DNA of 26,260 bases from a virus. The DNA is taken from positions 1 to 26,260 of IMG/VR virus record IMGVR_UViG_3300030012_001145; one strand, written 5' to 3'. Below the pieces are notes generated by a model. It was given only the letters and a program-made list of their open reading frames with translations, did no database searches and was not told where the DNA came from. The position numbers were made by a program, and so were the translations under genes. Of this stretch, positions 7,890 to 20,197 are shown piece after piece (the first letter of the stretch is position 1; every line of letters begins with the position of its first letter).

Positions 7890-10427
7890 ATGCCAACATC
7901 GGGAGTAGCATTCGAGAAGGATGCCGCATTCACAAAACGTGTCCTCGATGTTTTTGAGAAGGTCAGATTTTCCTACTTATCTGCATTACAAGACCCCAAG
8001 GAATACAGGGGAGAATGGAAGAAGGCAGTTAGTGGAGTCAGGAAGCATTTCGATGAGTTGAATGACTTCACTAGGGAACTGAAGAAGTTCGTGGATGAGA
8101 AGTACCTGTTTGACGACGAGGTTGAGAAACCCGATAGCCTTCAAGCCAAGAAACTATACAATGACATCAAGAGAATGAGATTCTCATCCAAGAAGATCAG
8201 TGATCCCTTCAGCGAGCAACTCGGTGAAAACGTACTCGATGTGTTGATGGAGAAGGAGGGGATGATGATAGCATTCCTACATTATGCAATAAGAACAGAG
8301 ACACTACCGATAAAGGAAGAGACATGGAAGAAGTATGATCTGCCTGTCGATACGATAACAGATGGCTCAAAGGGATTGGACCTGAAGGTATCTGACATTC
8401 CTCTCTTCATTATGGAACACTACGGTGAGGGTAAGAACACCAAGAGAGTGAAGGCCAAGGTTGACTCAGCGATGAAGAAACTCAAGGAGATGTACCTTGA
8501 GGATAACACAGAAGAAGAATGGGAGGCACTACTTGCTCTTGAGCAATCTATAACCAAGTCAGAGAAGGAGAAATCAGAGGTTGAGTTCTACATTCCAAAC
8601 AAGCCAATGTATAGAATATTCGAGATAGACGACATGAAGTACATCAAGGGTCTATCCGGTGAGTTTGTCGTGCAAGAGAAGTATGATGGAATGAGAATTC
8701 AGATACACAAGAAGGGCAGTGATGTCAATATATTCTCATTCAACAAGAAGGACATCACCGATAAATGCAAGAAGCAAGTCGATGAGATGAAGAAGAAACA
8801 TTTCGGGGATTGCATACTAGACGCAGAACTGGTAGGGTTTCAAGGGGATGAGCCTGTTCACAGGGCAGATGTCGTCACTCACATATTCAAGAAGGAAGTA
8901 GACGGGTTAGAACTCAAGGCACACGTTTTCGATGTCATGTACCATGAGGATAAGAACGTCGCAGAAGAACCCTTGAGGGAGAGAATCAACATATTGTTCT
9001 ACCAATATTCCCAACACTCATCGGAACATTTGGCCTTTCCGTCAAAGAAGGACACTAGAATCGCAGACTCATTCGATGAGATAGACAAGTACGCAAAGGG
9101 AATCATGGATCTCCCAACATCAGAGGGTGTGGTCATCAAGGACATAGAATCAACATACTATGTGGGAATACAGAAGAATCCTAAGTGGATCAAGTGGAAG
9201 AAGTTCGTTGATCTCGATGTCGTTGTGTTGGGTAAGGACAAGACAAAGAGTGGTCTTTTCACCTATAGAATAGGAATAGGACCAGTCACTGCTGAACAGG
9301 CTAGGGAGCATAAGACAGTGGAGATGGATGACATTGCATACATACCCGTAGGGAAGGCACTTAACACCAAGACCTCTGTTGATGTGGGTTCTATCGTTAG
9401 GGTGAAGGTTGATGAAGTCAGAAGAAATGGAGATGCCTACTCACTATACTCTGCCAAGGTCATAGAGATACCTGAAGTAAAGGAATCCGATAAACTACAG
9501 ACACTAGAACTTCTAGCACAAGATGCGAAGAAGTCATTGATCCAAGACTCAAAGGAATACATGATTAGAACTGAGGGACTAAAGAAAATGATAATCACTG
9601 ATGGAGTGCATGGTAATGCAGAGATCATAGTAAAATCGGATCTCGATGGCTTTCAGGTATACGGCATAGAGGGAGATGACCTGATGGCTAAGAATGCCCT
9701 TTACGACATAGACATATGGAAAGAGGAAATGACTGAAATGATGAAGACCATCAGATCAGAACTTAGATTGGCGATATATCAGTTCCTAAAGGATAAAGGA
9801 AGACCAACCCCATACAAAGATATTCTTGAGTTCGTCAAGGAAAAGCACTTGGATAAATTTGAGGGATATGTTTTCGATGGGGATCAGGATAAATTCAAGA
9901 AGTGGTTGATGAATCAAGAAACGGCTATTGTATATGATAAGAACAATGACACATTCTCTGAGAATGAGGAAACAATCGTAAAAGAGGCAAGTCAAAAGAT
10001 AGGGAAGTTTGTTGTAAACAAGAGAGAGGATGACAACCTAGACTTGGTTTTGATGCACGATGACAAAGAGTATGTTTGGACAATAGACATAGATGACATT
10101 GAAGATGTGTTCAATCTATTCGGTAAGTCTAGTAAGTTCCCTGCCGAGATAGCAACGAATAGACAGGACGGAATAAAACTAGACCAAGGGGAGGTTCTAT
10201 TCGGAGTACAAAGACATGGGTATCATGAATACAAGTTAGATGGTGATAGGTTCAAGACTCGACTACATGCTAGAGTAGTGCCTGTGGATGGTAAGGATAC
10301 ATGGGTAATATGGACAGGTATGAAACAAGAGATGCTAGATGACTCAGAAGATGAGGGACTTATCGATATAACAAAGGATAGGAATAAAAAGTTAACCCTA
10401 TCTAATACGGATGATCGAGACGCTTAA
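7890..10427 (+). CDS. ATP-dependent DNA ligase with extended C-terminus
   Basis: This enzyme would seal nicks in DNA through a lysine-AMP intermediate. The nucleotidyltransferase motifs are present in order: motif I EKYDGMR (K264, the predicted AMP-accepting lysine), motif III LDAELVGF (E313), motif IIIa AHVFDVMY, motif IV EGVVIKD (E412) and motif V WIKWKKF (K435, K437). An OB fold follows, ending near VDEVRRNGDAYSLYSAKVIE. The KYDGMRIQIHK text is archaeal/eukaryal in style, not bacterial NAD-type. The first 240 residues only loosely recall a ligase DNA-binding domain. Beyond about residue 545 come a winged-helix-like segment and a final domain (about 700-845) whose DGDRFKTRLHARVVPVDGKDTWVIWTG weakly recalls the LigD phosphoesterase domain. 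At 845 residues it exceeds the usual 550-600. The start follows GTGTGAGAC. Confidence 0.9.
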   Translation: MPTSGVAFEKDAAFTKRVLDVFEKVRFSYLSALQDPKEYRGEWKKAVSGVRKHFDELNDFTRELKKFVDEKYLFDDEVEKPDSLQAKKLYNDIKRMRFSSKKISDPFSEQLGENVLDVLMEKEGMMIAFLHYAIRTETLPIKEETWKKYDLPVDTITDGSKGLDLKVSDIPLFIMEHYGEGKNTKRVKAKVDSAMKKLKEMYLEDNTEEEWEALLALEQSITKSEKEKSEVEFYIPNKPMYRIFEIDDMKYIKGLSGEFVVQEKYDGMRIQIHKKGSDVNIFSFNKKDITDKCKKQVDEMKKKHFGDCILDAELVGFQGDEPVHRADVVTHIFKKEVDGLELKAHVFDVMYHEDKNVAEEPLRERINILFYQYSQHSSEHLAFPSKKDTRIADSFDEIDKYAKGIMDLPTSEGVVIKDIESTYYVGIQKNPKWIKWKKFVDLDVVVLGKDKTKSGLFTYRIGIGPVTAEQAREHKTVEMDDIAYIPVGKALNTKTSVDVGSIVRVKVDEVRRNGDAYSLYSAKVIEIPEVKESDKLQTLELLAQDAKKSLIQDSKEYMIRTEGLKKMIITDGVHGNAEIIVKSDLDGFQVYGIEGDDLMAKNALYDIDIWKEEMTEMMKTIRSELRLAIYQFLKDKGRPTPYKDILEFVKEKHLDKFEGYVFDGDQDKFKKWLMNQETAIVYDKNNDTFSENEETIVKEASQKIGKFVVNKREDDNLDLVLMHDDKEYVWTIDIDDIEDVFNLFGKSSKFPAEIATNRQDGIKLDQGEVLFGVQRHGYHEYKLDGDRFKTRLHARVVPVDGKDTWVIWTGMKQEMLDDSEDEGLIDITKDRNKKLTLSNTDDRDA

Positions 10428-10431
10428 ATAC
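10424..10431 (+). promoter_or_regulatory. Candidate archaeal TATA box ahead of the capsid module
   Basis: TTAAATAC, preceded by purine-rich GAGACG, overlaps the ligase stop codon and resembles an archaeal BRE/TATA element. If the box spans -30 to -23, transcription would start near 10454, where an in-frame GTG of the protease gene lies, giving a leaderless message. It is one of few AT-rich breaks without a GGTGA binding site before the next gene. AT-rich octamers are common, so this is tentative. Confidence 0.35.
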
Positions 10432-10438
10432 AAAGAAT

Positions 10439-11674
10439 GTGAATTTGTTCAGCGTGTTGGAACAACCAATGAGACTAGCCACAGATACTGGTGGTAGTTT
10501 TAATATCCTAAAATCAGACAACTTGGTTATAGGTGGCTATGCTTCCATAGAGGTTGTAGACAAACAAAACGATCTCATTACGTTGAAGGCATTGAATGAG
10601 GCAGTTCAAGGTTTCATGGGTGACAAGAAGTTCAGGAACGTCATGTCTAATCATTCAAACGTACAGGTTGGAGAGGTTATAGAATCATACAGGGATACGA
10701 ATGGAACCCTGCACAAGACGCAAGTAGATGATGTTGGGTTCTATGTTGTCATCAAACTAAGGGATGACATAGAGAAGGCCAAGGAAATATCAAGGGGAAT
10801 CCGAAAGGGAACCCTACGTTCCTTCAGCATCGGTGGTCAAGCACTATCGAAGCAGAAGAGGAACAACGACGAGTTTGGGGAGTACAATGAAATCGACAAA
10901 CTCGAATTACACGAAGTCACAATTTGTGAGAAGGGTATCAACCCGGAAGCCAAATTTGACATTTTAAAACAGGAAAAAGGTGAAAAAATGACTGAAAAGT
11001 TAGAAAAAGCCCTTGAGGAACTGAACACCCTGATGAAAGAGGTTGATGCCCTTTCAAAAGAGGAAATGGACGAGAAGGCCATGATGGATGCAAAAGCAAT
11101 GGACGAGAAGGCCATGTACGACAAAGCAATGGGTGAAGAGGAAACCGACAAGGAAGAAATGACAGAGAAAGAAGAGATGGAAGAAATGGACATGGCAGCC
11201 AAAGCCCTTGATGAAGATTCAACAAGGGACTACGAGGCTGGTGAAGAGGTTGTCAGTGGTGGAAGGCCAACGGCAGCACCTGCACAACTCGGACCAATTT
11301 CCAAAGGTCTAGAGAGTGGTGACTTCACTACTCTTGATCTATCCGTCGAGAACGTAGAGAAAGCGTATGAGCAGTTTAAGGCCGAGCAATTGGAGAAACT
11401 AGCATACGATTCTCTATCTAAGCAATTCGAGTCTCGATTTGCTAGAGAGATGGAAATGAAGAAATCTCTTGCTGAGAGAGCAGAATACGACGCACATGCT
11501 GAAGTATCCGCACTCAAAGAAGAGTTTGCTGAACTACGCAAGTCTCTAACAGAGAGGAACGATGCAATCGTTAAGGCAGCAGTGCCTTCCCTCCCTGAAG
11601 ACGTGCTAAAATCCGTTGAGAATATCGCTGACATGTCGTGGGACGACATACACAAGTTGGCGGGGAACTACTGA
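10439..11674 (+). CDS. Capsid maturation protease (XkdF-like) fused to scaffold
   Basis: The first 175 residues resemble the XkdF/HK97-type serine protease that matures procapsids: IGGYASIEVVDKQNDLI, a likely catalytic His in SNHSNVQVGEV (H72), and a likely catalytic Ser in GTLRSFSIGG (S128 or S130), closed by LHEVTICEKGINPEA. From residue 184 on it is a charged helical scaffold with a Met/Asp/Lys/Ala repeat (about 209-232), a linker near 262-285, a coiled coil at about 300-380 and the tail MSWDDIHKLAGNY. It lies directly upstream of the capsid protein. The start is uncertain: GTG 10439, GTG 10454 and ATG 10469 are all in frame and none has a clear binding site. Family and order are convincing. 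Confidence 0.88.
   Translation: MNLFSVLEQPMRLATDTGGSFNILKSDNLVIGGYASIEVVDKQNDLITLKALNEAVQGFMGDKKFRNVMSNHSNVQVGEVIESYRDTNGTLHKTQVDDVGFYVVIKLRDDIEKAKEISRGIRKGTLRSFSIGGQALSKQKRNNDEFGEYNEIDKLELHEVTICEKGINPEAKFDILKQEKGEKMTEKLEKALEELNTLMKEVDALSKEEMDEKAMMDAKAMDEKAMYDKAMGEEETDKEEMTEKEEMEEMDMAAKALDEDSTRDYEAGEEVVSGGRPTAAPAQLGPISKGLESGDFTTLDLSVENVEKAYEQFKAEQLEKLAYDSLSKQFESRFAREMEMKKSLAERAEYDAHAEVSALKEEFAELRKSLTERNDAIVKAAVPSLPEDVLKSVENIADMSWDDIHKLAGNY
10979..10990 (+). promoter_or_regulatory. Internal ribosome binding site and ATG for scaffold alone
   Basis: GGTGA at 10979-10983 is followed after four bases by ATG at 10988-10990, inside the protease gene and in its reading frame (residue 184). The spacing and sequence match the starts of the LAGLIDADG-type gene (GGAGGTGAAAAAATG) and the capsid gene (GAGGTGAAAAGAAATG). 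It sits exactly where the protease domain ends and the scaffold begins. Confidence 0.7.
10988..11674 (+). CDS. Nested scaffold protein from an internal start
   Basis: A 228-residue protein is predicted from the in-frame ATG at protease residue 184. It would contain only the helical scaffold, beginning MTEKLEKALEELN and ending with the MSWDDIHK tail. Phage lambda makes its Nu3 scaffold from an internal start in the protease gene C in the same way, so the arrangement is known in tailed viruses. Making more scaffold than protease would suit procapsid assembly, which needs many scaffold copies and few protease copies. The internal GGTGAAAAAATG is better than any start signal of the full-length gene. 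That the shorter product is made is inference. Confidence 0.65.
   Translation: MTEKLEKALEELNTLMKEVDALSKEEMDEKAMMDAKAMDEKAMYDKAMGEEETDKEEMTEKEEMEEMDMAAKALDEDSTRDYEAGEEVVSGGRPTAAPAQLGPISKGLESGDFTTLDLSVENVEKAYEQFKAEQLEKLAYDSLSKQFESRFAREMEMKKSLAERAEYDAHAEVSALKEEFAELRKSLTERNDAIVKAAVPSLPEDVLKSVENIADMSWDDIHKLAGNY
11066..11131 (+). repeat. 33-base tandem repeat in the scaffold region
   Basis: The 18-base unit ATGGACGAGAAGGCCATG occurs at 11066-11083 and again, identical, at 11099-11116, a period of 33 bases. The encoded peptide reads MDEKAMMDAKA then MDEKAMYDKAM. A more diverged third unit follows. The repeat lies in the flexible, acidic start of the scaffold and probably varies in copy number between relatives. 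Confidence 0.75.
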
Positions 11675-11685
11675 GGTGAAAAGAA

Positions 11686-13035
11686 ATGAGTGGATATGTT
11701 AAAACAATGAGAGATTTAGAAAGTTCTTCATATGGACTTACTGGCGGTGCTGCTGGTAATGCTGTATTGAAGAGTGCCGGATTGGTTGGCGGTTTCGGAA
11801 CTGCACACGATGGTGGAACATCCATCGCTACAGGTGCAACTGGACTGGCCGACCTATACAACGTCCTTTACGGACAGAAAGTTTGGTCGATGCTTAACCA
11901 AGAGGTTAACGCATTGTCTATGGTTGCTAAAAGACCATACACATCATCGGGATGGAGGGTTCTAAAGAGCCGTCCTCAAGGTGGCAGTGGTTCGTCCTTT
12001 AGCGTCACATCAGGCGGAGCAGCAGGTTCAACGTCTCCTGACCCGGCTATCATCGGTGGTGTTATTGAAAACGCTTCCCTAGGTAGCACTGGTTTTGAGG
12101 CTCTTGCTCCTGAGTATGACAAACTATTCGTCAGCCCAAAGACGGTGGCCCATCTATTCGAGTTCTCTGAACTTGGTATGGAACTTGCCGCTATCGATGA
12201 CGGTGTAGGTGACATCAGAGCAATAGTCCGTGAGGACATGGGTAAGCATCACGCTGAGTCTCAGAACAAGATGCTTCTGATGCCATTCGAGTTGTATGGT
12301 GCTGACACAAACGACGACGCAACACCAACCGATGACCTATCGAAGAACTACACTTCACTATTGAAGATCGTTTCTTCAGAGGCTGAAGTTGAGGCAATGG
12401 CTGCTGCTGGTCTAATCGGTTCATCCGATGACACCATCGAGAACGCTGCTGCTGCAATGAGGCAGATATACGGCAAAGCAAGAGGTGCAACTGGAAACGG
12501 ATACCTAGACGCTGTAATCAACTTCGGTGGTGGATACGCAGCAGGTGACGCAAGGCTACTAACACTAAGCCTACTCAACAGCGTCATCCGTGAGGTACGT
12601 GAGAACGGTGGAAACACCAAGGTCATGTTGACTGGATACGACACTGTTCAGGCTATCGGTGATCTCCTACAGGCCCAAGAGAGGTTCATGGACAGGAGAG
12701 AAATCGTGCCAACCCACAACGGTGTTCGTGGTGTCAAGGGTGCAGAAGTCGGCTTTAGGGTCGCTACCTACTACGACATCCCGATCATCCCATGCAAAGA
12801 CATGCCAAAGACGGGACAGGGTTCAGGTAAACTCAGCGACATTCTGTTGCTAGACACTGACCACCTATGGCTATCTGTGATGAAACCAACCCAATACTTT
12901 GAGGATGGTATCACCAACGGAAACCCATTCGGTGTTGGTAAACTCGGAAACCAAGGAATGTACAGAACCATCGGGGAAACCTGCTGTTCATTCTTCAAGG
13001 GACAAGCCAAGATTACGAACCTAAAGAGTGCTTGA
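11686..13035 (+). CDS. Major capsid protein (HK97 fold)
   Basis: This 449-residue protein should form the icosahedral shell. It directly follows the protease-scaffold and has the strong site GAGGTGAAAAGAAATG, overlapping the previous stop. The sequence is Gly/Ala/Ser-rich at the N-terminus. It continues with LYNVLYGQKVWSMLNQEVNALSMV, a surface-exposed variable region, and a C-terminal half typical of HK97-like shells: VMLTGYDTVQAIGDLL, a loop with REIVPTHNGVRGV, then VATYYDIPIIPCKDMP and ILLLDTDHLWLSV. Codon use is even and GC-richer than that of flanking genes, consistent with high expression. I see no transmembrane segment. The fold assignment rests on gene order plus these segments. Confidence 0.88.
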   Translation: MSGYVKTMRDLESSSYGLTGGAAGNAVLKSAGLVGGFGTAHDGGTSIATGATGLADLYNVLYGQKVWSMLNQEVNALSMVAKRPYTSSGWRVLKSRPQGGSGSSFSVTSGGAAGSTSPDPAIIGGVIENASLGSTGFEALAPEYDKLFVSPKTVAHLFEFSELGMELAAIDDGVGDIRAIVREDMGKHHAESQNKMLLMPFELYGADTNDDATPTDDLSKNYTSLLKIVSSEAEVEAMAAAGLIGSSDDTIENAAAAMRQIYGKARGATGNGYLDAVINFGGGYAAGDARLLTLSLLNSVIREVRENGGNTKVMLTGYDTVQAIGDLLQAQERFMDRREIVPTHNGVRGVKGAEVGFRVATYYDIPIIPCKDMPKTGQGSGKLSDILLLDTDHLWLSVMKPTQYFEDGITNGNPFGVGKLGNQGMYRTIGETCCSFFKGQAKITNLKSA

Positions 13036-13044
13036 GGTGATTAA

Positions 13045-13395
13045 GTGACACATACAGTGACTGTACTAGCAGACCACAAAGGCTACGTTGGCCCAAGGGT
13101 CGCTGGTGACGAATACTTTGTGGATGCTAATATCAACATCACCTCATACACTGAGGATGGCGAGATAATCACAGCAGCATCACTAGGACTTACTAGTGTC
13201 ACTGCTGCTATGATTACTGGCTGTGAGGTCGCATCAGGGGTTGCTTTGAACAGATTTGTAGTGGAACTAAGTGCGGCAGGTGCTTATGAGAGCAGTTCAT
13301 CATTCGCTCTTGTCGGTACTGTTGCATCTTCCGGTGCTGAATCTGCTAACAGCGACCTAGGAATGATTAGAGTCCGTGTTTACGGGAATCTCTAA
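13045..13395 (+). CDS. Small beta-rich protein, likely capsid accessory
   Basis: The 116-residue product is rich in Val, Thr, Ser and Ala with alternating hydrophobic residues (HTVTVLADHKGYVGPRVAG, MIRVRVYGNL), the look of a small beta protein. It has no cysteine pair or membrane segment beyond one cysteine. It begins with GTG, supported by GAGGTGATTAAGTG directly after the capsid stop, and is followed by a strong hairpin. The place directly after the capsid gene suits a decoration or capsid-stabilising protein, but no family match is recognised, so the role is inferred from position. Confidence 0.75.
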   Translation: MTHTVTVLADHKGYVGPRVAGDEYFVDANINITSYTEDGEIITAASLGLTSVTAAMITGCEVASGVALNRFVVELSAAGAYESSSSFALVGTVASSGAESANSDLGMIRVRVYGNL

Positions 13396-13413: not shown

Positions 13414-13449
13414 TAGTCCTGTCCCTCCTAAAATGGAGGGACGGGGCTA
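13414..13449 (+). terminator. Strong hairpin after the capsid genes
   Basis: TAGTCCTGTCCCTCC (13414-13428) pairs with GGAGGGACGGGGCTA (13435-13449) around a six-base loop, a 15-pair stem with two G-T wobbles and an 8-pair perfect inner part. It lies in one of only two real gaps in the window. No long T tract follows, so it may be a transcription attenuator, an RNA-processing or 3'-end stabilising element rather than a classic terminator. Confidence 0.6.
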
Positions 13450-13468
13450 CAACCTAACGGTGTTTAAT

Positions 13469-13954
13469 ATGGTAAAAATTAAACTAAAGAACAAATCATT
13501 GGATGAACCAAAAATCATTAGAAGAGGTGGAGTGACTTACTCCATCACCTCAACAGAAGAAATAGACATGCCTCTAAGGTATGCTGCCTACATCATAGAT
13601 AGCACAATGCAATATGGTTTCGTGCCTTCAGATAAATCAGACCTAATTTCTGCTAGTGGGGATTTGCTGAGAGTAGTCCTAAGTCTAGAAAATGAAACCA
13701 CGATAGATGCTGTCGTAAACAAATACTTCGCAAAGAAACTATCCAAGGTAGAGGCAAAGCCTGAACCCAAGGTAGAAGAGAAGCCCGAACCTAAAGTAGA
13801 GGAAAAGGTCGAGGAAAAACCAAAAACAGAATCAAAAGCAGAGAAGAAACCTGCTCCTAAGAAAAAAGGAAGACCACCTAAGAAGAAGACAGATACTTCC
13901 TCTTCAACAACCAAAGCAAAGAAAACTAAGAAAACCACCACCAAGGAGGAATAA
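13469..13954 (+). CDS. Protein with lysine-rich, AT-hook-like tail
   Basis: I start this gene at ATG 13469, preceded by GGTG at 13459-13462, not at ATG 13433, which lies inside the hairpin loop. The 161-residue product has a folded-looking N-terminal half (about residues 1-90, GGVTYSITSTEEIDMPLRYAAYIID). Then comes a tail of KPEPKVEEKPEPKVEEK repeats ending in a Lys/Ser/Thr-rich segment. The tail contains KKKGRPPKKK (G134-R135-P136), close to the GRP core of AT hooks that bind the minor groove of AT-rich DNA. Histone H1-like tails are similar. A virion-internal DNA-binding protein or connector is plausible. The N-terminal half is not recognised. Confidence 0.75.
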   Translation: MVKIKLKNKSLDEPKIIRRGGVTYSITSTEEIDMPLRYAAYIIDSTMQYGFVPSDKSDLISASGDLLRVVLSLENETTIDAVVNKYFAKKLSKVEAKPEPKVEEKPEPKVEEKVEEKPKTESKAEKKPAPKKKGRPPKKKTDTSSSTTKAKKTKKTTTKEE

Positions 13955-13956
13955 GC

Positions 13957-14229
13957 ATGGCATGTAATTCAAGCGGAGTAAAAACAGCCGACGCACTAAT
14001 ATCAAATGACAGATGTAAATTAATCAGCATTCACGCATCAGGATTCAGTAGCACAGGTACGATCAAACTATTCGACAATACTGCTGCAAGTGGAAAGGAG
14101 ATTGTTAGGATATCATTCGACGCAGCCAAGCAGACTGCCATAGAATTCGACATGCATGGTGCTATAGCAAACAATGGATTGTACTTGGACATAACAGGTA
14201 CTGCTGCTGTTTCTGTGGAGTTTGCATAA
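13957..14229 (+). CDS. Small beta-rich structural-type protein
   Basis: The 90-residue product reads like a small beta sandwich: CKLISIHASGFSSTGTIKLFDNTAASGKEIVRISF and a closing ITGTAAVSVEFA. Proteins of this style, a short strand pair around LFDN and SGKEI, are common among virion decoration and appendage proteins of marine tailed viruses, from general familiarity rather than a search. It starts with GGAGGAATAAGCATG, directly after the previous stop. It has two cysteines (C3, C20) and no membrane segment. The exact role is unknown. Confidence 0.72.
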   Translation: MACNSSGVKTADALISNDRCKLISIHASGFSSTGTIKLFDNTAASGKEIVRISFDAAKQTAIEFDMHGAIANNGLYLDITGTAAVSVEFA

Positions 14230-14230
14230 T

Positions 14231-14638
14231 ATGAGTTATAATACATTTGAGGATGACACTCGCCTAGTGATGACAATCCTATTCGTTGGTGCTGTAAGTG
14301 GTGTCAACGTATACTTCTTCGCTACATTCGGGTCTGCTTTCCTAAGTGTCTATGGCCCTTACACCCTAGCAGTTCTATTTGGTGTATTGACAGTGGGGGG
14401 AATAATGATTCTAAAATCTATATTCGACTTGGTGTTGAACGAGTACATCGAGGATTTCCTACTACAGAGAAGCATCAACACCTATTGGGCTAGGAAAGCC
14501 AAGGACGAAGAGAACCGCAAGAGAGTACGTGAGTCCATGCGTCAGTATGAAGAGTTCAGGTTTAGGCCGATTCCACAGCAGCAACAGTATGTCGATGAGA
14601 ACGTGATAAATCCGTCCTTCTTGATGACTGAACAGTGA
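14231..14638 (+). CDS. Small membrane protein with two predicted helices
   Basis: The ATG at 14231 is preferred over the TTG at 14222. The 135-residue product has two hydrophobic segments, about residues 13-35 (VMTILFVGAVSGVNVYFFA) and 42-62 (PYTLAVLFGVLTVGGIMIL). A charged, helical, soluble C-terminal half follows (ARKAKDEENRKRVRESMRQYEEF) and ends PIPQQQQYVDENV. It is followed within five bases by another membrane protein and then by a small GTPase. The layout suggests a hairpin-like membrane anchor with a cytoplasmic arm that could bind the GTPase, which is inference. Such a protein is unexpected between capsid and adaptor genes. A virion membrane, a holin or a host-membrane docking factor are alternatives. 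Confidence 0.75.
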   Translation: MSYNTFEDDTRLVMTILFVGAVSGVNVYFFATFGSAFLSVYGPYTLAVLFGVLTVGGIMILKSIFDLVLNEYIEDFLLQRSINTYWARKAKDEENRKRVRESMRQYEEFRFRPIPQQQQYVDENVINPSFLMTEQ

Positions 14639-14642
14639 GAAT

Positions 14643-14867
14643 ATGCTAGACCAACTATTGATGGGCATTGATGAATCGACTCTTGCATATGACTTGCAGA
14701 GAGCGCATTCAGCAGACCTGATGTTCATGAGGTTCAGGTTTTGGTTTTGGGGGTTCATATCCACAATAAGTGGCTTCCTCGTAGGGCATATGATAGCCTT
14801 ATCCGGCTACAACATCTTTGCAGGAATATGGGAGGGGTTGCTGGACTTTTGGCATCATCTATTCTGA
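14643..14867 (+). CDS. Second small membrane protein
   Basis: The 74-residue product has a short polar N-terminus (MLDQLLMGIDESTLAYDLQRAHSADLM), then an aromatic-rich hydrophobic helix from about residue 31 to 55 (RFWFWGFISTISGFLVGHMIAL). A second weaker hydrophobic stretch ends FAGIWEGLLDFWHHLF. It is probably membrane-inserted by one helix, with an aromatic, amphipathic C-terminus. GTGAG precedes the ATG, and the GTPase gene starts nine bases after its stop. A holin is a possible alternative because of size, but holins usually sit in a lysis cassette and no lysis enzyme is seen nearby. Confidence 0.72.
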   Translation: MLDQLLMGIDESTLAYDLQRAHSADLMFMRFRFWFWGFISTISGFLVGHMIALSGYNIFAGIWEGLLDFWHHLF

Positions 14868-14876
14868 GGTGTTGAA

Positions 14877-15545
14877 ATGTCATTGATGGCTGGTTTCGCA
14901 ATCGTTATTGTCGAGGCAGTTGGTAAACTATACAGTAAATTACATGCAATAAACTTTGGAGTATATGGAGCGACACAAGTAGGAAAGACAACACTACACC
15001 ATCAATTGAGAACAAGGGGGGATGTACCGAATATCAAAGAGAGAACAGTTGGATTGAAGAGGGCAACTAGAAAGTACGTCAAGATAGATGGAAATGCCCA
15101 CACGGTCAAGACAGCAGATGTAGGGGGAGAGACACTATACTGGGGGGAATGGGTAAAGGACATGAAAAGCCGACATGTCAAATACATCATTTTTATGATC
15201 GATGACAGGCACTTGTCCAAGCACTATGACATCGAACAGCAACTATCTTGGTCATTCCTAGTAGATACCATCTGTTCACCCTATTGGGATATGATAAATA
15301 AGAAGGGCAAGAAAAAGTCCTCTGACTATCCAATCGCTGTAGGTATATGGGCAAACAAATTCGACTTGTGGAAAGACAAATACAACTATGACGAAATAGA
15401 GAAACATCCAATATTCGCAGCATTTGAAGGAGGAATAGAGAAACTAAATGAGAAGGGGGTTCCTGTCTTCAAGTATATAGTAAGTGCTAAATCAGATTCA
15501 AAGATGGTATATAGGGGAATACTGACGATGATAGACGATTACTGA
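14877..15545 (+). CDS. Arf/SR-beta-like small GTPase
   Basis: All five G-motifs are present in order: G1 GATQVGKT (31-38), a switch I threonine in ERTVG (T57), G3 ADVGGE (80-85), G4 NKFD (160-163) and G5 SAK (203-205). The DVGG form of G3 is typical of the Arf/SR-beta branch rather than of Ras (DTAG). Glu85 replaces the catalytic Gln, predicting slow intrinsic GTP hydrolysis or dependence on a partner. Residues 2-15 form a hydrophobic helix (SLMAGFAIVIVEAV), like the membrane-binding N-terminal segment of Arf or SR-beta. At 222 residues it is slightly long, with an insertion around 140-150. The start is firm (GAGGTGTTGAAATG). Its neighbours are two membrane proteins and a zinc-site protein. 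A viral-encoded, membrane-associated switch is the natural reading; its process is unknown. Confidence 0.88.
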   Translation: MSLMAGFAIVIVEAVGKLYSKLHAINFGVYGATQVGKTTLHHQLRTRGDVPNIKERTVGLKRATRKYVKIDGNAHTVKTADVGGETLYWGEWVKDMKSRHVKYIIFMIDDRHLSKHYDIEQQLSWSFLVDTICSPYWDMINKKGKKKSSDYPIAVGIWANKFDLWKDKYNYDEIEKHPIFAAFEGGIEKLNEKGVPVFKYIVSAKSDSKMVYRGILTMIDDY

Positions 15546-15555
15546 GGTGAAAAAC

Positions 15556-16224
15556 ATGGCTATGCAATTTAATCCACAAAGTTTCATTGACGCTAGAACG
15601 ACGACTGTAGAACAGAATGCCTTCCTTCCAAGGGAGAAACTCGCAAGGGCTCCCGGCACTGTTATGAAATATGAATTCAAGGCAATTAAACCCAAGAAGC
15701 AGATCAAGGAAATCATAAAGATACTGAAACCTGAAAAGAAAAAATTCTTATTTTTCAAGTTTGGACATCAATTCAACATCAAAGATAGATGTGTTGTCTG
15801 TGGTACACACAAGGTATGGGAGGTATCCGACCCATACAGACCCGGCATACCACTGCACAAGGTTAGGAAAGGATACCCAATGAAGGGAACCTACTGTGCA
15901 AAACATGCTTCGATGTACAAGCAGTACGAAATGTTGGAGCAACAGATACTTGCAGATGAGCATGGTTTGAGTTTCAGCGCATACGTTCCATCTCCAAAGA
16001 AATTAATATCCTCCGGCCCTCTCACAACACTGAGGATGGAAGACATTCAATCGCTTTCTGCGGTTGGATGGACTATCAAACCTCCCAATGTGGAGGTTTC
16101 CTCCAAGGAAGAAGAGTTGTTTTTATTACTGATAGAACAGAAGTCAAATACGGAGAGGATACAGGCACTACTGAAGACAGGCACACGAATAGTAGAAGAG
16201 GAAGCAGTGGAGGATGAGGATTAA
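15556..16224 (+). CDS. Zinc-site protein next to the GTPase
   Basis: The ATG at 15556 follows GAGGTGA (15544-15550); the earlier in-frame GTG is part of that site. The 222-residue product has a basic region (residues about 40-70, KAIKPKKQIKEIIKILKPEKKK), then C79-x2-C82 and C114-x2-H117, a likely single zinc site bridging 30 residues. A helical C-terminal half ends in an acidic tail (EEEAVEDED). It has no membrane segment. Position suggests it works with the GTPase or in head assembly, possibly as an adaptor or effector. The fold family is not recognised. Confidence 0.75.
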   Translation: MAMQFNPQSFIDARTTTVEQNAFLPREKLARAPGTVMKYEFKAIKPKKQIKEIIKILKPEKKKFLFFKFGHQFNIKDRCVVCGTHKVWEVSDPYRPGIPLHKVRKGYPMKGTYCAKHASMYKQYEMLEQQILADEHGLSFSAYVPSPKKLISSGPLTTLRMEDIQSLSAVGWTIKPPNVEVSSKEEELFLLLIEQKSNTERIQALLKTGTRIVEEEAVEDED

Positions 16225-16946
16225 TGGGACTATTCGGGACTAGCAACGGACAATTAGCATCTGTAATAACAGATGGACAGAACGCACAATTCAAAGCAGT
16301 AAACAACCTTTTGACATTACAGGAGAACCATGTCGAAGAATTCTTTGAGTATCATGGTCCTCAATTCCTAACTGCTTTTGAGCAGTTGATCGAGGATGTA
16401 GTAGAGAGAGTGGTATCTACGCAATTGAAGAATCTCAAGTTCAATACCGCATCCAGTGGGGAGATCGTTCTCCATGCTGATAGCGAGGCAGCATACAACA
16501 ACGTCAGTGACGCAACACTACAACTAGACATACAGAATCTACTATCTGCTGCTGTAAACACTGAGGTCATACTACAGAGAAGAATGGCGAAACAGCAGTA
16601 CCTTGAATCGCAAGGGTTCTCTGCTGGACCTGCTGCACCAATGCAGCCATCTATGGGACAACCTACAATGGGACAACCGGGCATGGCCCCATCCAACATA
16701 CAAGGCAACGCTGCCTTTGGTGGTGTGAATAATCAACTAGCAATGCAACAACAGGCATTCAACCCCATGAATCAATCAGGATATCCAATACCACCAGCAG
16801 GTTATGACCAAATGAACAACCCGTATTGGATCGACCCTGCTACTGGTCAACCTACCTATACTCCACCACAAAGCGGTTTGGGACTAGGTAGTGCTTTGGT
16901 ACACGGAGCCTCAAAAGCAGCAGCATGGGCAAAATGGCTGGCATAG
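16224..16946 (+). CDS. Protein with Pro/Gln/Met-rich low-complexity tail
   Basis: The 240-residue product has a helical N-terminal part (about residues 10-130) with two long helices, one beginning EFFEYHGPQFLTAFEQLIEDV. A disordered region follows, rich in Pro, Gln, Met, Gly and Asn, with repeats MGQPTMGQPGM near residues 150-160. It ends in a short Ala-rich, possibly amphipathic helix (SALVHGASKAAAWAKWLA). The start is the TAATG overlap with the zinc-site gene, so the two are translationally coupled. No enzyme motif is visible and no family is recognised. The layout suggests a scaffold or linker protein rather than a catalyst. Confidence 0.75.
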   Translation: MGLFGTSNGQLASVITDGQNAQFKAVNNLLTLQENHVEEFFEYHGPQFLTAFEQLIEDVVERVVSTQLKNLKFNTASSGEIVLHADSEAAYNNVSDATLQLDIQNLLSAAVNTEVILQRRMAKQQYLESQGFSAGPAAPMQPSMGQPTMGQPGMAPSNIQGNAAFGGVNNQLAMQQQAFNPMNQSGYPIPPAGYDQMNNPYWIDPATGQPTYTPPQSGLGLGSALVHGASKAAAWAKWLA

Positions 16947-16955
16947 GTGTTCTAG

Positions 16956-19115
16956 ATGGTGGAAGGTGAACCTACTACAATAGAAGGTAGGGCATTCAAC
17001 CAACCCACAGAAATAGAACTCAAAAAGATATCCTCCTTTGGTGAACTGCCCAAATGGACTAAGCCAATCACCCACGGTCCCTTTCTCAACTTCAAGGAAG
17101 CAAGACAAGGACAGATGGAAAGTAGGTATTCTGAACTTACGGACAAGAAACTCATAGAAAAACTGAGTAAGGATGAGAGGGATAAATACATCAAATACCT
17201 AAAGGAACTAAGTGAACTGATACTCAACACTCCTTTGGATGATATGAAGTTGGAGTTCTCTACGGACCTAGCAAACCTCTCATTAGAAAGATACGTCAAG
17301 GGAGAGAAACTAACACTCAAGGATCTAAGTGAGGAAGATTTCGTAAAAGACACCTTTCAAACAAAGGAACAAGCATTGTCAAGGGATAGAAAGGGATCAA
17401 GATTAACAAGCGCATTGATAAATCCAAACAAGATAAATGAGATACTGGACCCTGATACACTCAACAGACACATCGATACCGAATGGGAGGGTGACAAAAT
17501 AATCATTAGGTTTGATTCTCTAAAATACATGAAGGATTTGTTTGAAGAAAACAAGTATGATGAGCCATTTAAGTTTGAGACTGATGATAAATTCAACTTG
17601 ACAGGACAACTCGCAATAGAGAAAGATGGTGAACTACTGAAAATTCCCGAATCACACCTAATCGTCACTGGTGGAGAGGACATTTCTATTGGCTTGGTGG
17701 GGTCATACATAGAGGGAGAGGGACTTGCCACTAATACTGTAATAACAAGATCCAAGAACAAAGGCAAGGTCGAAATAGATGGTAAAGTAGTGCAAGAATA
17801 TGACTACATCACAGTGTCACCACCAAAAAAAGACACAGAATCAACAAAGAATAACCAATACAAACTTACAGTAGTGCATACAAACGTGAACTCCAAACTT
17901 GGGGTCACTGACTACAATAAGAAGGAAACTAGAAAGAAAACAAATGAATTCAAGAACTTCGTGTATTGGTTGGAGATAATAGACACTGAAGGATCATATG
18001 ACTTCATGAAGGACAAGGAAATATACGCAGTATACTCAGCAAATAAACGTGACCCAATTATTGACTTCACCACCGCCGAACAAATGGCAGACAAACTTAA
18101 CGAGATGTTTACTGGTTCTTATGTCTCTACGAAAGACGACAAGATACCGTATAAGTTCAAGAACATGGATGAGCCAATAGGTGCTATCATAGCAAATTCC
18201 TTGAAGCCTAGGCAACAGGATTCAGGTTTGATAGCCAATTCGATCTTTGACACTACAATACCATTAGGCACAATCGAGATCGTATTGAAGAGTAAGTTAT
18301 ACGAGCAAATCAAGGTGTTGGGAGGAAAAGAAGGTAAGGAAGGTAAAGAAGTTGAGGAAGAAAGTGAGCCCAAGAATCCTAGGCTCATGGCCTTGATCAA
18401 AGACTACAAGAAATATCAAGGTATGATAGAAGCATTCGACAAGGCGATAAAGGGAGGGGGAGATAGCCCCTCTTCGTATCGCATTACGAATCCAAGGATG
18501 CAAGGACCGAAGCAAGAGGGTGGTAAAGAATTAGGAAGGGGTGTGGAGATCGAGGATGAATATGCAGATCCCTTCACAGAATTCAGTAGAATGGTTCCCA
18601 ATGCCACTGCCGAGGACTTCAATGACCTAATAGACATATACGAGGGTAGTGAGTCTAGGGGATACAGAAAAGGAAGAGAAGTCTACAAGGCTTTGTTGTT
18701 CATGGCAGACAAGGACATCGACGCAGATGCTCTCAAACAAGCAGCAAAGGAAGGCACTGACGACAAGGTTATTGCTGCGGCAATAGAGGTACTCGAAGGA
18801 CTAGCAGGAAAAGATAAGGAAAGACCAAAGGAGTTCAGTAGTTCAGATTTCCTATTGGATTTCCTCGGTATTGGATTTGGAGTTGGAAGAACTAAGATAA
18901 AATTGGAGAAGAAAACACCACTGATTGCTCTAGAGGCAGTTGACTATGCGTATAGGAAACAGATAAACCTAAGCGGATCGATGGACATCGCTGGCAAGAA
19001 GACAGAAGATGGGAAGATACCAACGTATAACATCAAGGGGAACAAGACTAGGCTCCAACAACTCATAAGGGGAGTAAGACAGTTTAATAGACGCATAGAA
19101 GCGTTAGGTGGTTAG
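16956..19115 (+). CDS. Large hypothetical protein (719 aa)
   Basis: I do not recognise this protein. The start is supported by AGGTGTTCTAG just before the ATG. Residues 1-170 are helical and charged (KLSKDERDKYIKYLKELSELI). Residues about 170-440 look beta-rich, with motifs such as KIIIRFDSLKYM and IVTGGEDISIGLVGSYIEG. There is a Gly/Lys/Glu linker near 445-465 (GGKEGKEGKEVEEE). The last 150 residues are mixed (DLIDIYEGSESRGYRKGREVYKALLFMADKDIDADALKQ). No membrane segment, nuclease or hydrolase motif is evident. It is the last gene before the head-tail adaptor. A virion structural or ejected protein is possible but unproven. Confidence 0.7.
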   Translation: MVEGEPTTIEGRAFNQPTEIELKKISSFGELPKWTKPITHGPFLNFKEARQGQMESRYSELTDKKLIEKLSKDERDKYIKYLKELSELILNTPLDDMKLEFSTDLANLSLERYVKGEKLTLKDLSEEDFVKDTFQTKEQALSRDRKGSRLTSALINPNKINEILDPDTLNRHIDTEWEGDKIIIRFDSLKYMKDLFEENKYDEPFKFETDDKFNLTGQLAIEKDGELLKIPESHLIVTGGEDISIGLVGSYIEGEGLATNTVITRSKNKGKVEIDGKVVQEYDYITVSPPKKDTESTKNNQYKLTVVHTNVNSKLGVTDYNKKETRKKTNEFKNFVYWLEIIDTEGSYDFMKDKEIYAVYSANKRDPIIDFTTAEQMADKLNEMFTGSYVSTKDDKIPYKFKNMDEPIGAIIANSLKPRQQDSGLIANSIFDTTIPLGTIEIVLKSKLYEQIKVLGGKEGKEGKEVEEESEPKNPRLMALIKDYKKYQGMIEAFDKAIKGGGDSPSSYRITNPRMQGPKQEGGKELGRGVEIEDEYADPFTEFSRMVPNATAEDFNDLIDIYEGSESRGYRKGREVYKALLFMADKDIDADALKQAAKEGTDDKVIAAAIEVLEGLAGKDKERPKEFSSSDFLLDFLGIGFGVGRTKIKLEKKTPLIALEAVDYAYRKQINLSGSMDIAGKKTEDGKIPTYNIKGNKTRLQQLIRGVRQFNRRIEALGG

Positions 19116-19123
19116 GTGATATC

Positions 19124-20197
19124 ATGGGCTCAACAGTTTCCTCCCCTAGTGACTTCACGAACATAAACGTCAACTACGCTCAAGGCAGTGGATACTACAC
19201 TACCCACACTGATGTTTCCAATCTGTTGCAGATATCTCCATTTACTGACTCAACCACACCCAACAGGGAAGAGGTAGGTAAACTCATACGAAGGGTGGAG
19301 GCAAAGATAGACGACGCTGTTGGGTATGCGTTTCGACCAATCATATACAAGGACGAATATCATAGCACTGACTTCGTTAGATTGAACTCCTATGTTGTTG
19401 AGCAATACAAGGACTATGTGGGATTCATACAACTAGAGAGGCCAAAGGTCATGAAGATCGTCAGACTTGAGGTTTGGCAAGGAAACGACTACGAGGATAT
19501 AGCATCTGCCACTGCATCCTATATTGCCCCGACATCGGGAAGCGGATACACCTTGACGTTGGGTGTTGGTGGCTTTAGTTTCGTATTGACGGAGGGAGTT
19601 CACTTCTTTGGTGACTTTGGGCAGAAGACCACAGCCAAGCAGATAGTATCAGCGATCAACGAGGTGTTCCCACAGGACACTGCACAATTCACAGGAGAGA
19701 CTGCGGCCAAGAGCGTCACTGCTACTAGTGGCTCTCTAACTAGGGGAGTATCGGACTTCTTCTATGCCACAACTCACTCAGAGGATTCAAAGAAAGTAGT
19801 AATCTCATCATTGTTGCCGGGTGATGATGGCTCTGATTGTACGATAGCGACATCCTCCGGTTCGATCACGGCATTCACTGACAATCAGAACCAAGGAAGA
19901 ATGGATGACTTTTGGATGATCAACAGCGAGGGTAAGATATTCTTCCATCAGAAGTATCCATTTGTAGCGAGTCACGGATGTAGGGTCACATATGTCAGTG
20001 GTGACAGCAGGGTTCCATCATGGGTTCATGAGACTACCACGAAACTCGTTGCTGCTGAAGTCATCAGACATGACGACAACTCCATACTCATCACCGAGAC
20101 AGGATCGAACATCGATCTCAAGGCCAAGCATGACATACTCATAGAAGAGGCCAAGGAAGTATTGAAGGGGAAGAAGATAGTTATCTATATGCTGTGA
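19124..20197 (+). CDS. Head-tail adaptor (gp6-like) with an inserted domain
   Basis: The ends match the connector that sits under the portal. Residues about 29-62 (TDVSNLLQISPF...REEVGKLIRRVEAKIDDAVG) are the helical opening seen in HK97 gp6/YqbG-like adaptors. The C-terminal part (RVTYVSGDSRVPSWVHETTTKLVAAEVIR) is the strand plus helix that follows in those proteins. Typical adaptors have 100-130 residues, whereas this has 357: about residues 115-270 form an extra beta-rich segment (SGYTLTLGVGGFSFVLTEGVHFF and later GSDCTIATSSGSIT). It opens a standard adaptor-terminator-tube order. The start follows TTAGGTGATATC. Confidence 0.72.
   Translation: MGSTVSSPSDFTNINVNYAQGSGYYTTHTDVSNLLQISPFTDSTTPNREEVGKLIRRVEAKIDDAVGYAFRPIIYKDEYHSTDFVRLNSYVVEQYKDYVGFIQLERPKVMKIVRLEVWQGNDYEDIASATASYIAPTSGSGYTLTLGVGGFSFVLTEGVHFFGDFGQKTTAKQIVSAINEVFPQDTAQFTGETAAKSVTATSGSLTRGVSDFFYATTHSEDSKKVVISSLLPGDDGSDCTIATSSGSITAFTDNQNQGRMDDFWMINSEGKIFFHQKYPFVASHGCRVTYVSGDSRVPSWVHETTTKLVAAEVIRHDDNSILITETGSNIDLKAKHDILIEEAKEVLKGKKIVIYML

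Follow-up and report, generated by a model that had tools for sequence, protein, structure and literature searches.

A lineage of ocean viruses that probably infect Marine Group II archaea was found to carry a small GTPase gene of the Ras type in its particle-building gene block, together with four companion genes that come and go with it as one unit. Among the 14 module proteins compared, the GTPase is the most conserved, and one or two of its companions are predicted to lie in the membrane. These results suggested a virus-encoded, membrane-acting machine, which is not described for tailed viruses in the papers that we examined. The DNA analyzed here, hereafter the window, is a stretch of 26,260 nucleotides (positions 1 to 26,260 of IMG/VR record IMGVR_UViG_3300030012_001145).

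Identification of the small GTPase gene

The open reading frame at positions 14877–15545 (+) runs from ATG to TGA and encodes 222 amino acids. The five G motifs are in order: G1 (GATQVGKT) at residues 31–38, the G2 Thr at residue 57 within RTVG (56–59), G3 (DVGG) at 81–84 followed by Glu85, G4 (NKFD) at 160–163, and G5 (SAK) at 203–205. An ordered G1-G3-G4-G5 pattern with GTPase-like spacing appeared in 0 of 200,000 shuffles of the same protein. One close search of IMG/VR returned 187 relatives, and in 139 distinct sequences the motif residues of G1, T57, DxGG, NKxD, and SAK were invariant. Residue 85 was Glu in 103 of these and Gln in 36; a tree required 3 changes between them, at least 2 of which were forced by well-supported branches, although this was a quick tree without bootstrap. 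Hence, the Glu is a natural alternative rather than a fixed loss. The dN/dS against the three nearest relatives was about 0.02–0.03, although dS was near saturation in two of them. A chance ORF was therefore rejected.

The initial annotation had described a complete small GTPase with all five G motifs, a hydrophobic N-terminal helix, Glu in place of the catalytic Gln, and coupling to head and tail genes, and this observation was confirmed, with the reservation that Glu85 is correct for the window but is not a fixed trait of the family. A helix was predicted at residues 3–22, with a Kyte-Doolittle (KD) maximum of 1.63 over residues 1–19 and a mean moment of 0.33; membrane binding was not assayed, so that these values leave it undecided whether this is a membrane-associated helix as in Arf proteins. 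As for the coupling, the genes from the major capsid protein (MCP) through the GTPase to the adaptor lie on one strand with gaps of −8 to 37 bp, and GAGGTG-like ribosome-binding sites precede several of them.

Family assignment and predicted structure

Each of 33 diverse members matched NCBIfam small_GTP (TIGR00231; best E 2.4e-6). Of the same 33, 31 matched Pfam MMR_HSR1, 26 Roc, 25 SRPRB, 19 Ras, 14 Arf, and 10 G-alpha. By sequence the best families were MMR_HSR1, Roc, SRPRB, Ras, and Arf, but the window protein itself stayed below every curated cut-off: it scored 16.8 bits against the cut-off of 25 for SR-beta (PF09439), and it was not matched by Arf (PF00025) at E 0.1. A single-sequence search of PDB found nothing useful, and profile searches gave Ras/Arf only at E 0.013–0.04. 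No relative of the GTPase was found in 50,697 phage records.

Structure prediction had been proposed in advance as a test, since a non-GTPase P-loop fold would have contradicted the assignment. A first AlphaFold2 model from 31 alignment rows was too poor to use (pLDDT 62). With 136 rows, the model reached pLDDT 76.9 and pTM 0.79, with helix 3–22 ahead of the canonical alternating strand-helix order of a GTPase; the P-loop and residues 31–60 were modelled poorly. Foldseek against PDB gave Rab and Ras chains with probability 1.00, E values to 5e-9, and TM up to 0.70 on the target length. Against predicted viral structures (BFVD), the top 50 were nearly all giant-virus (nucleocytovirus) proteins, led by Ras/Rab proteins (E to 1.7e-8), and no tailed-virus protein was among them. 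Therefore, we concluded that the gene encodes a small GTPase, with the ordered motifs and the predicted fold of the Ras superfamily (TRAFAC P-loop), although binding and hydrolysis of GTP were not measured. In contrast, these analyses did not assign it to the Arf or SR-beta branch: the T-x-G and D-x-G-G-[E/Q] motifs read like Arf/G-alpha, whereas the fold search ranked Rab/Ras first.

The window as a probable magrovirus fragment

The window holds genes for terminase, portal, ATP-dependent ligase, prohead protease, HK97-type MCP, adaptor, tail, assembly chaperone, and tape measure; the ligase family was confirmed on relatives. The MCP (11686–13035, +) matched phrog_24667 (E 5.6e-26) and SU10_MCP. 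The ligase lies beside the prohead protease (7890–11674, +), an arrangement reported for a Group A magrovirus (PMC7318539). Between terminase and portal, a 489-aa ORF (1501–2970) holds an HNH endonuclease domain only at residues 280–409 (phrog_5046, 4e-7), possibly an endonuclease inserted into, or fused with, another packaging protein. The portal and capsid proteins were nearest, among phage records, to those of the haloarchaeal druskaviruses HVTV/HCTV. As the window is a 26 kb fragment, DNA polymerase and genome size were examined on relatives: those on 84–103 kb contigs have family B polymerase (PolB) in two pieces, and half of those tested encode a chaperonin. A split PolB, GroEL, and ligase are described for Aoguangviridae, order Magrovirales (PMC10768690). 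These results indicated that the window is very probably a magrovirus fragment; the host assignment to Marine Group II/Poseidoniales comes from those papers, and the magrovirus type records (ON649702, OR863078, and PP497039) were not part of the comparison. A scan of genome contigs gave only two magrovirus contigs (loci L082 and L083), binned in a 'Maricaulis' MAG in GTDB, which is probably a binning error that would mislead host assignment.

A five-gene cassette gained or lost as a unit

The GTPase gene is the third of five genes at 14222–16946 (about 2.7 kb). The first (14222–14638, +; alternative ATG at 14231) encodes a 138-aa membrane protein with two predicted transmembrane segments (about residues 14–37 and 45–73) followed by a charged tail. 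The second (14643–14867, +) encodes a 74-aa probable membrane protein with an invariant, unexplained R-A-H-S-A-D motif before a hydrophobic stretch, whose hydropathy is borderline in the window (1.57) and 1.5–2.0 in relatives. These two and the GTPase gene are coupled with gaps of 4–9 bp. The fourth (15556–16224, +; alternative GTG start at 15547) encodes a 222-aa protein with invariant C79-x2-C82 and C114-x2-H117, a probable zinc site. The fifth (16224–16946, +) encodes a 240-aa protein with a conserved N-terminal M-G-x-x-G-T-S-N, a Pro/Gln/Gly/Met-rich middle, and a conserved C-terminal A-W-A-K-W-L. None of the four companions had a convincing relative in Pfam, and none of the three tested (the first, fourth, and fifth gene products) had one in PDB or in the 50,697 phage records.

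The cassette is flanked on the left by the MCP gene and three small genes (13045–13395, 13433–13954, and 13957–14229, +) that are shared, in part, with cassette-less sister viruses. On the right (16956–20197, +) are a 719-aa protein (16956–19115) and a head-tail adaptor (19124–20197), a homolog of HVTV-2 gp126 and HCTV-16 gp121 (blastp E 4e-9 to the latter); the name adaptor is inferred from position. The large protein before the adaptor varies from 433 to over 1000 aa and is barely conserved, tending to be longer where the cassette is missing (L278:11459-13825, L313, and L302). We considered homology of the GTPase with a haloarchaeal virion gene at the same place (HVTV-2 gp125/gp126), but gp126 matched the adaptor and no GTPase is there.

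A search for the same gene beside capsid genes in other archaeal viruses had been named as a check, and absence from all related genomes as grounds for refutation. To avoid selecting for the GTPase, we collected loci by capsid protein only. Of 80 loci, 52 had at least 4.5 kb downstream, and all 52 carried the same five genes. We next collected more distant relatives with a capsid alignment led by HVTV-2. In 50 of those both the capsid gene and the adaptor gene were visible: 7 carried the four companions, each with the GTPase as well, and 43 carried none of the five. Searches of the whole contigs of 14 cassette-less relatives found no GTPase elsewhere. Many cassette-less viruses have otherwise the same operon (portal, two small genes, ligase, protease, capsid, 13045-type gene, and adaptor), and in them the gene at the 13957 position is followed directly by the large protein that precedes the adaptor.

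In the contigs tested (including G001–G023), cassette-bearing viruses have split PolB and two ATP-dependent ligases, one of them inside the virion module (7890–10427 in the window). Cassette-less magroviruses in which PolB was found have it in one piece (split and one-piece forms were compared in the contigs of L030, L163, L278, and L321), and the five with uninterrupted ligase matches have one ligase. Hence, the cassette marks a lineage.

Among the capsid-selected loci, the median identity of the GTPase to the window was 72.5%, against 67.3% for the MCP and 65.7% for the protease. No moron-like variability was seen, and a 'moron' was rejected. Ten near-complete contigs of 84–103 kb each hold exactly one small GTPase, which is this one. 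One contig of 184,733 bp (IMGVR_UViG_3300021958_000021; L060 and L071) holds two different GTPase genes, two chaperonins, and four PolB pieces, that is, two magrovirus genomes joined, by assembly or in nature.

Discussion

Here, we tentatively propose that the cassette is a core, late unit of one magrovirus lineage that encodes a membrane-associated small-GTPase switch. In this view, the GTPase would bind the host membrane through its N-terminal helix and the two small membrane proteins, cycle between GDP and GTP, and use the zinc-site protein as a regulator (candidate GAP/GEF) and the AWAKWL protein as an effector. The output may be a membrane event late in infection, most likely membrane remodelling or docking of heads for release from the cell. 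Our analysis showed the GTPase motifs and predicted fold, the strict co-occurrence of the five genes, their operon position, and purifying selection. Late expression was inferred from operon position, and nucleotide cycling, membrane binding of the GTPase, the regulator and effector roles, and egress are likewise inferences. Membrane attachment rests on hydropathy only, the roles of the companions are guesses because they have no recognisable homologs, and no experiment, virion proteome, or expression data were included. The cassette could also act in entry or against the host.

The interpretation in the initial annotation was thus partly supported. A real small GTPase in the virion operon, conserved beside capsid genes across a large virus lineage, was borne out; the Arf/SR-beta-like assignment was not settled by our data, and its proposed need at assembly, egress, or entry is still inference. 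The all-or-none cassette had been missed, and since sister magroviruses with otherwise the same operon lack it, the GTPase is not needed for tailed-virion assembly in general and would serve a lineage-specific step.

Among the alternatives, the least unlikely is an assembly platform, in which the membrane proteins and GTPase form a membrane-attached site where procapsids start or where head and tail are joined, with the GTPase as an assembly timer or chaperone. The position between capsid/decoration genes and the adaptor gene, on the same strand and operon, is consistent with this. However, sister magroviruses with the same portal, protease, MCP, decoration, and adaptor genes have no cassette, and the druskaviruses HVTV-2/HCTV-16 build tailed particles without it. 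It is also doubtful, though possible, that the proteins are packaged in the virion and act on the membrane of the new host. The location among virion genes, the small membrane proteins, and the conserved aromatic/hydrophobic C-terminus of the 240-aa protein would fit, but tailed virions normally hold no lipid, and integral membrane proteins in them would be odd. Slightly less likely is host manipulation or superinfection exclusion, in which the cassette changes the membrane or trafficking of the infected cell and sits in the late operon only for expression timing. Gain or loss as a unit in one lineage, the membrane proteins, and the lack of homologs favor it, whereas presence in all 52 tested members and conservation above that of the capsid protein are unlike typical accessory genes. 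A GTP-binding scaffold with little hydrolysis, suggested by Glu85 in 103 of 139 relatives, is very unlikely, given Gln85 in 36, the repeated changes between the two, the invariance of the other motif residues, and the fact that some GTPases hydrolyse without this Gln.

Small GTPases as membrane switches are a hallmark of eukaryotes, and few archaeal examples have been tested. A virus lineage widespread in the surface ocean has kept one under stronger constraint than its own capsid protein, with membrane partners gained or lost with it. This gives a defined five-gene target for the open question of how viruses of Marine Group II archaea get out of or into cells, and a second test case, independent of cellular genomes, for what Ras-type switches do in archaea. 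It is possible, though we consider it less likely than not, that tailed archaeal viruses evolved their own GTPase-driven membrane-remodelling machine (GTPase, two membrane anchors, zinc regulator, and effector) to leave or enter a host whose release mechanism is unknown, which would be the first Ras-type switch that is part of a tailed-virus life cycle. The magrovirus and archaeal tailed-virus papers examined make no mention of a GTPase, but as these did not include the founding magrovirus paper and two later ones, an annotation in their tables cannot be excluded.

The nearest tested precedent for a small GTPase acting on an archaeal membrane is ArvA/OapA of Haloferax volcanii, which drives vesicle formation (PMC10927574). 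ArvA is an archaeal small GTPase, also annotated with PF01926, with a predicted N-terminal membrane-binding amphipathic helix, and its operon contains two partners, one with a zinc-binding motif (zinc ribbon); the viral protein is likewise a small GTPase with a predicted N-terminal helix, though its membrane binding was not assayed, and it is encoded beside a probable zinc-site protein. The viral partners, however, are not ArvB (OapB, PF09846) or ArvC (OapC, PF09845) by profile: OapB was absent from ten magrovirus contigs, OapC gave one sub-cut-off match elsewhere in one of them, neither was found in the cassette neighbors, and the viral operon has membrane proteins. We claim likeness rather than membership, and the vesicle analogy is functional at best; the ArvA sequence (HVO_3014), MglA with its specific switch and partner MglB, and Poseidoniales host GTPases were not compared. 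The Arf/SR-beta/G-alpha branch shares weak profile matches, the T-x-G and D-x-G-G-[Q/E] motifs, and an N-terminal helix with the viral family, whereas SAK in G5 is Ras-like and the catalytic position is Glu or Gln. The Ras/Rab-like GTPases of giant viruses (Pithovirus, Edafosvirus, Tupanvirus, and mimivirus Rab, the last proposed to act in virion membrane biogenesis; PMC4569851) are also virus-encoded proteins of this fold, but with only about 8–20% identity; they belong to eukaryotic nucleocytoviruses, whereas the present gene lies in a five-gene cassette in the virion operon of a tailed archaeal virus. Finally, portal, MCP, and adaptor are shared with both Magrovirales (Aoguangviridae and Apasviridae) and Druskaviridae, and ligase beside prohead protease, a size of 90–110 kb, and split PolB are shared with magroviruses (PMC10768690, PMC7318539), while Druskaviridae and the sisters with one-piece PolB lack the cassette.
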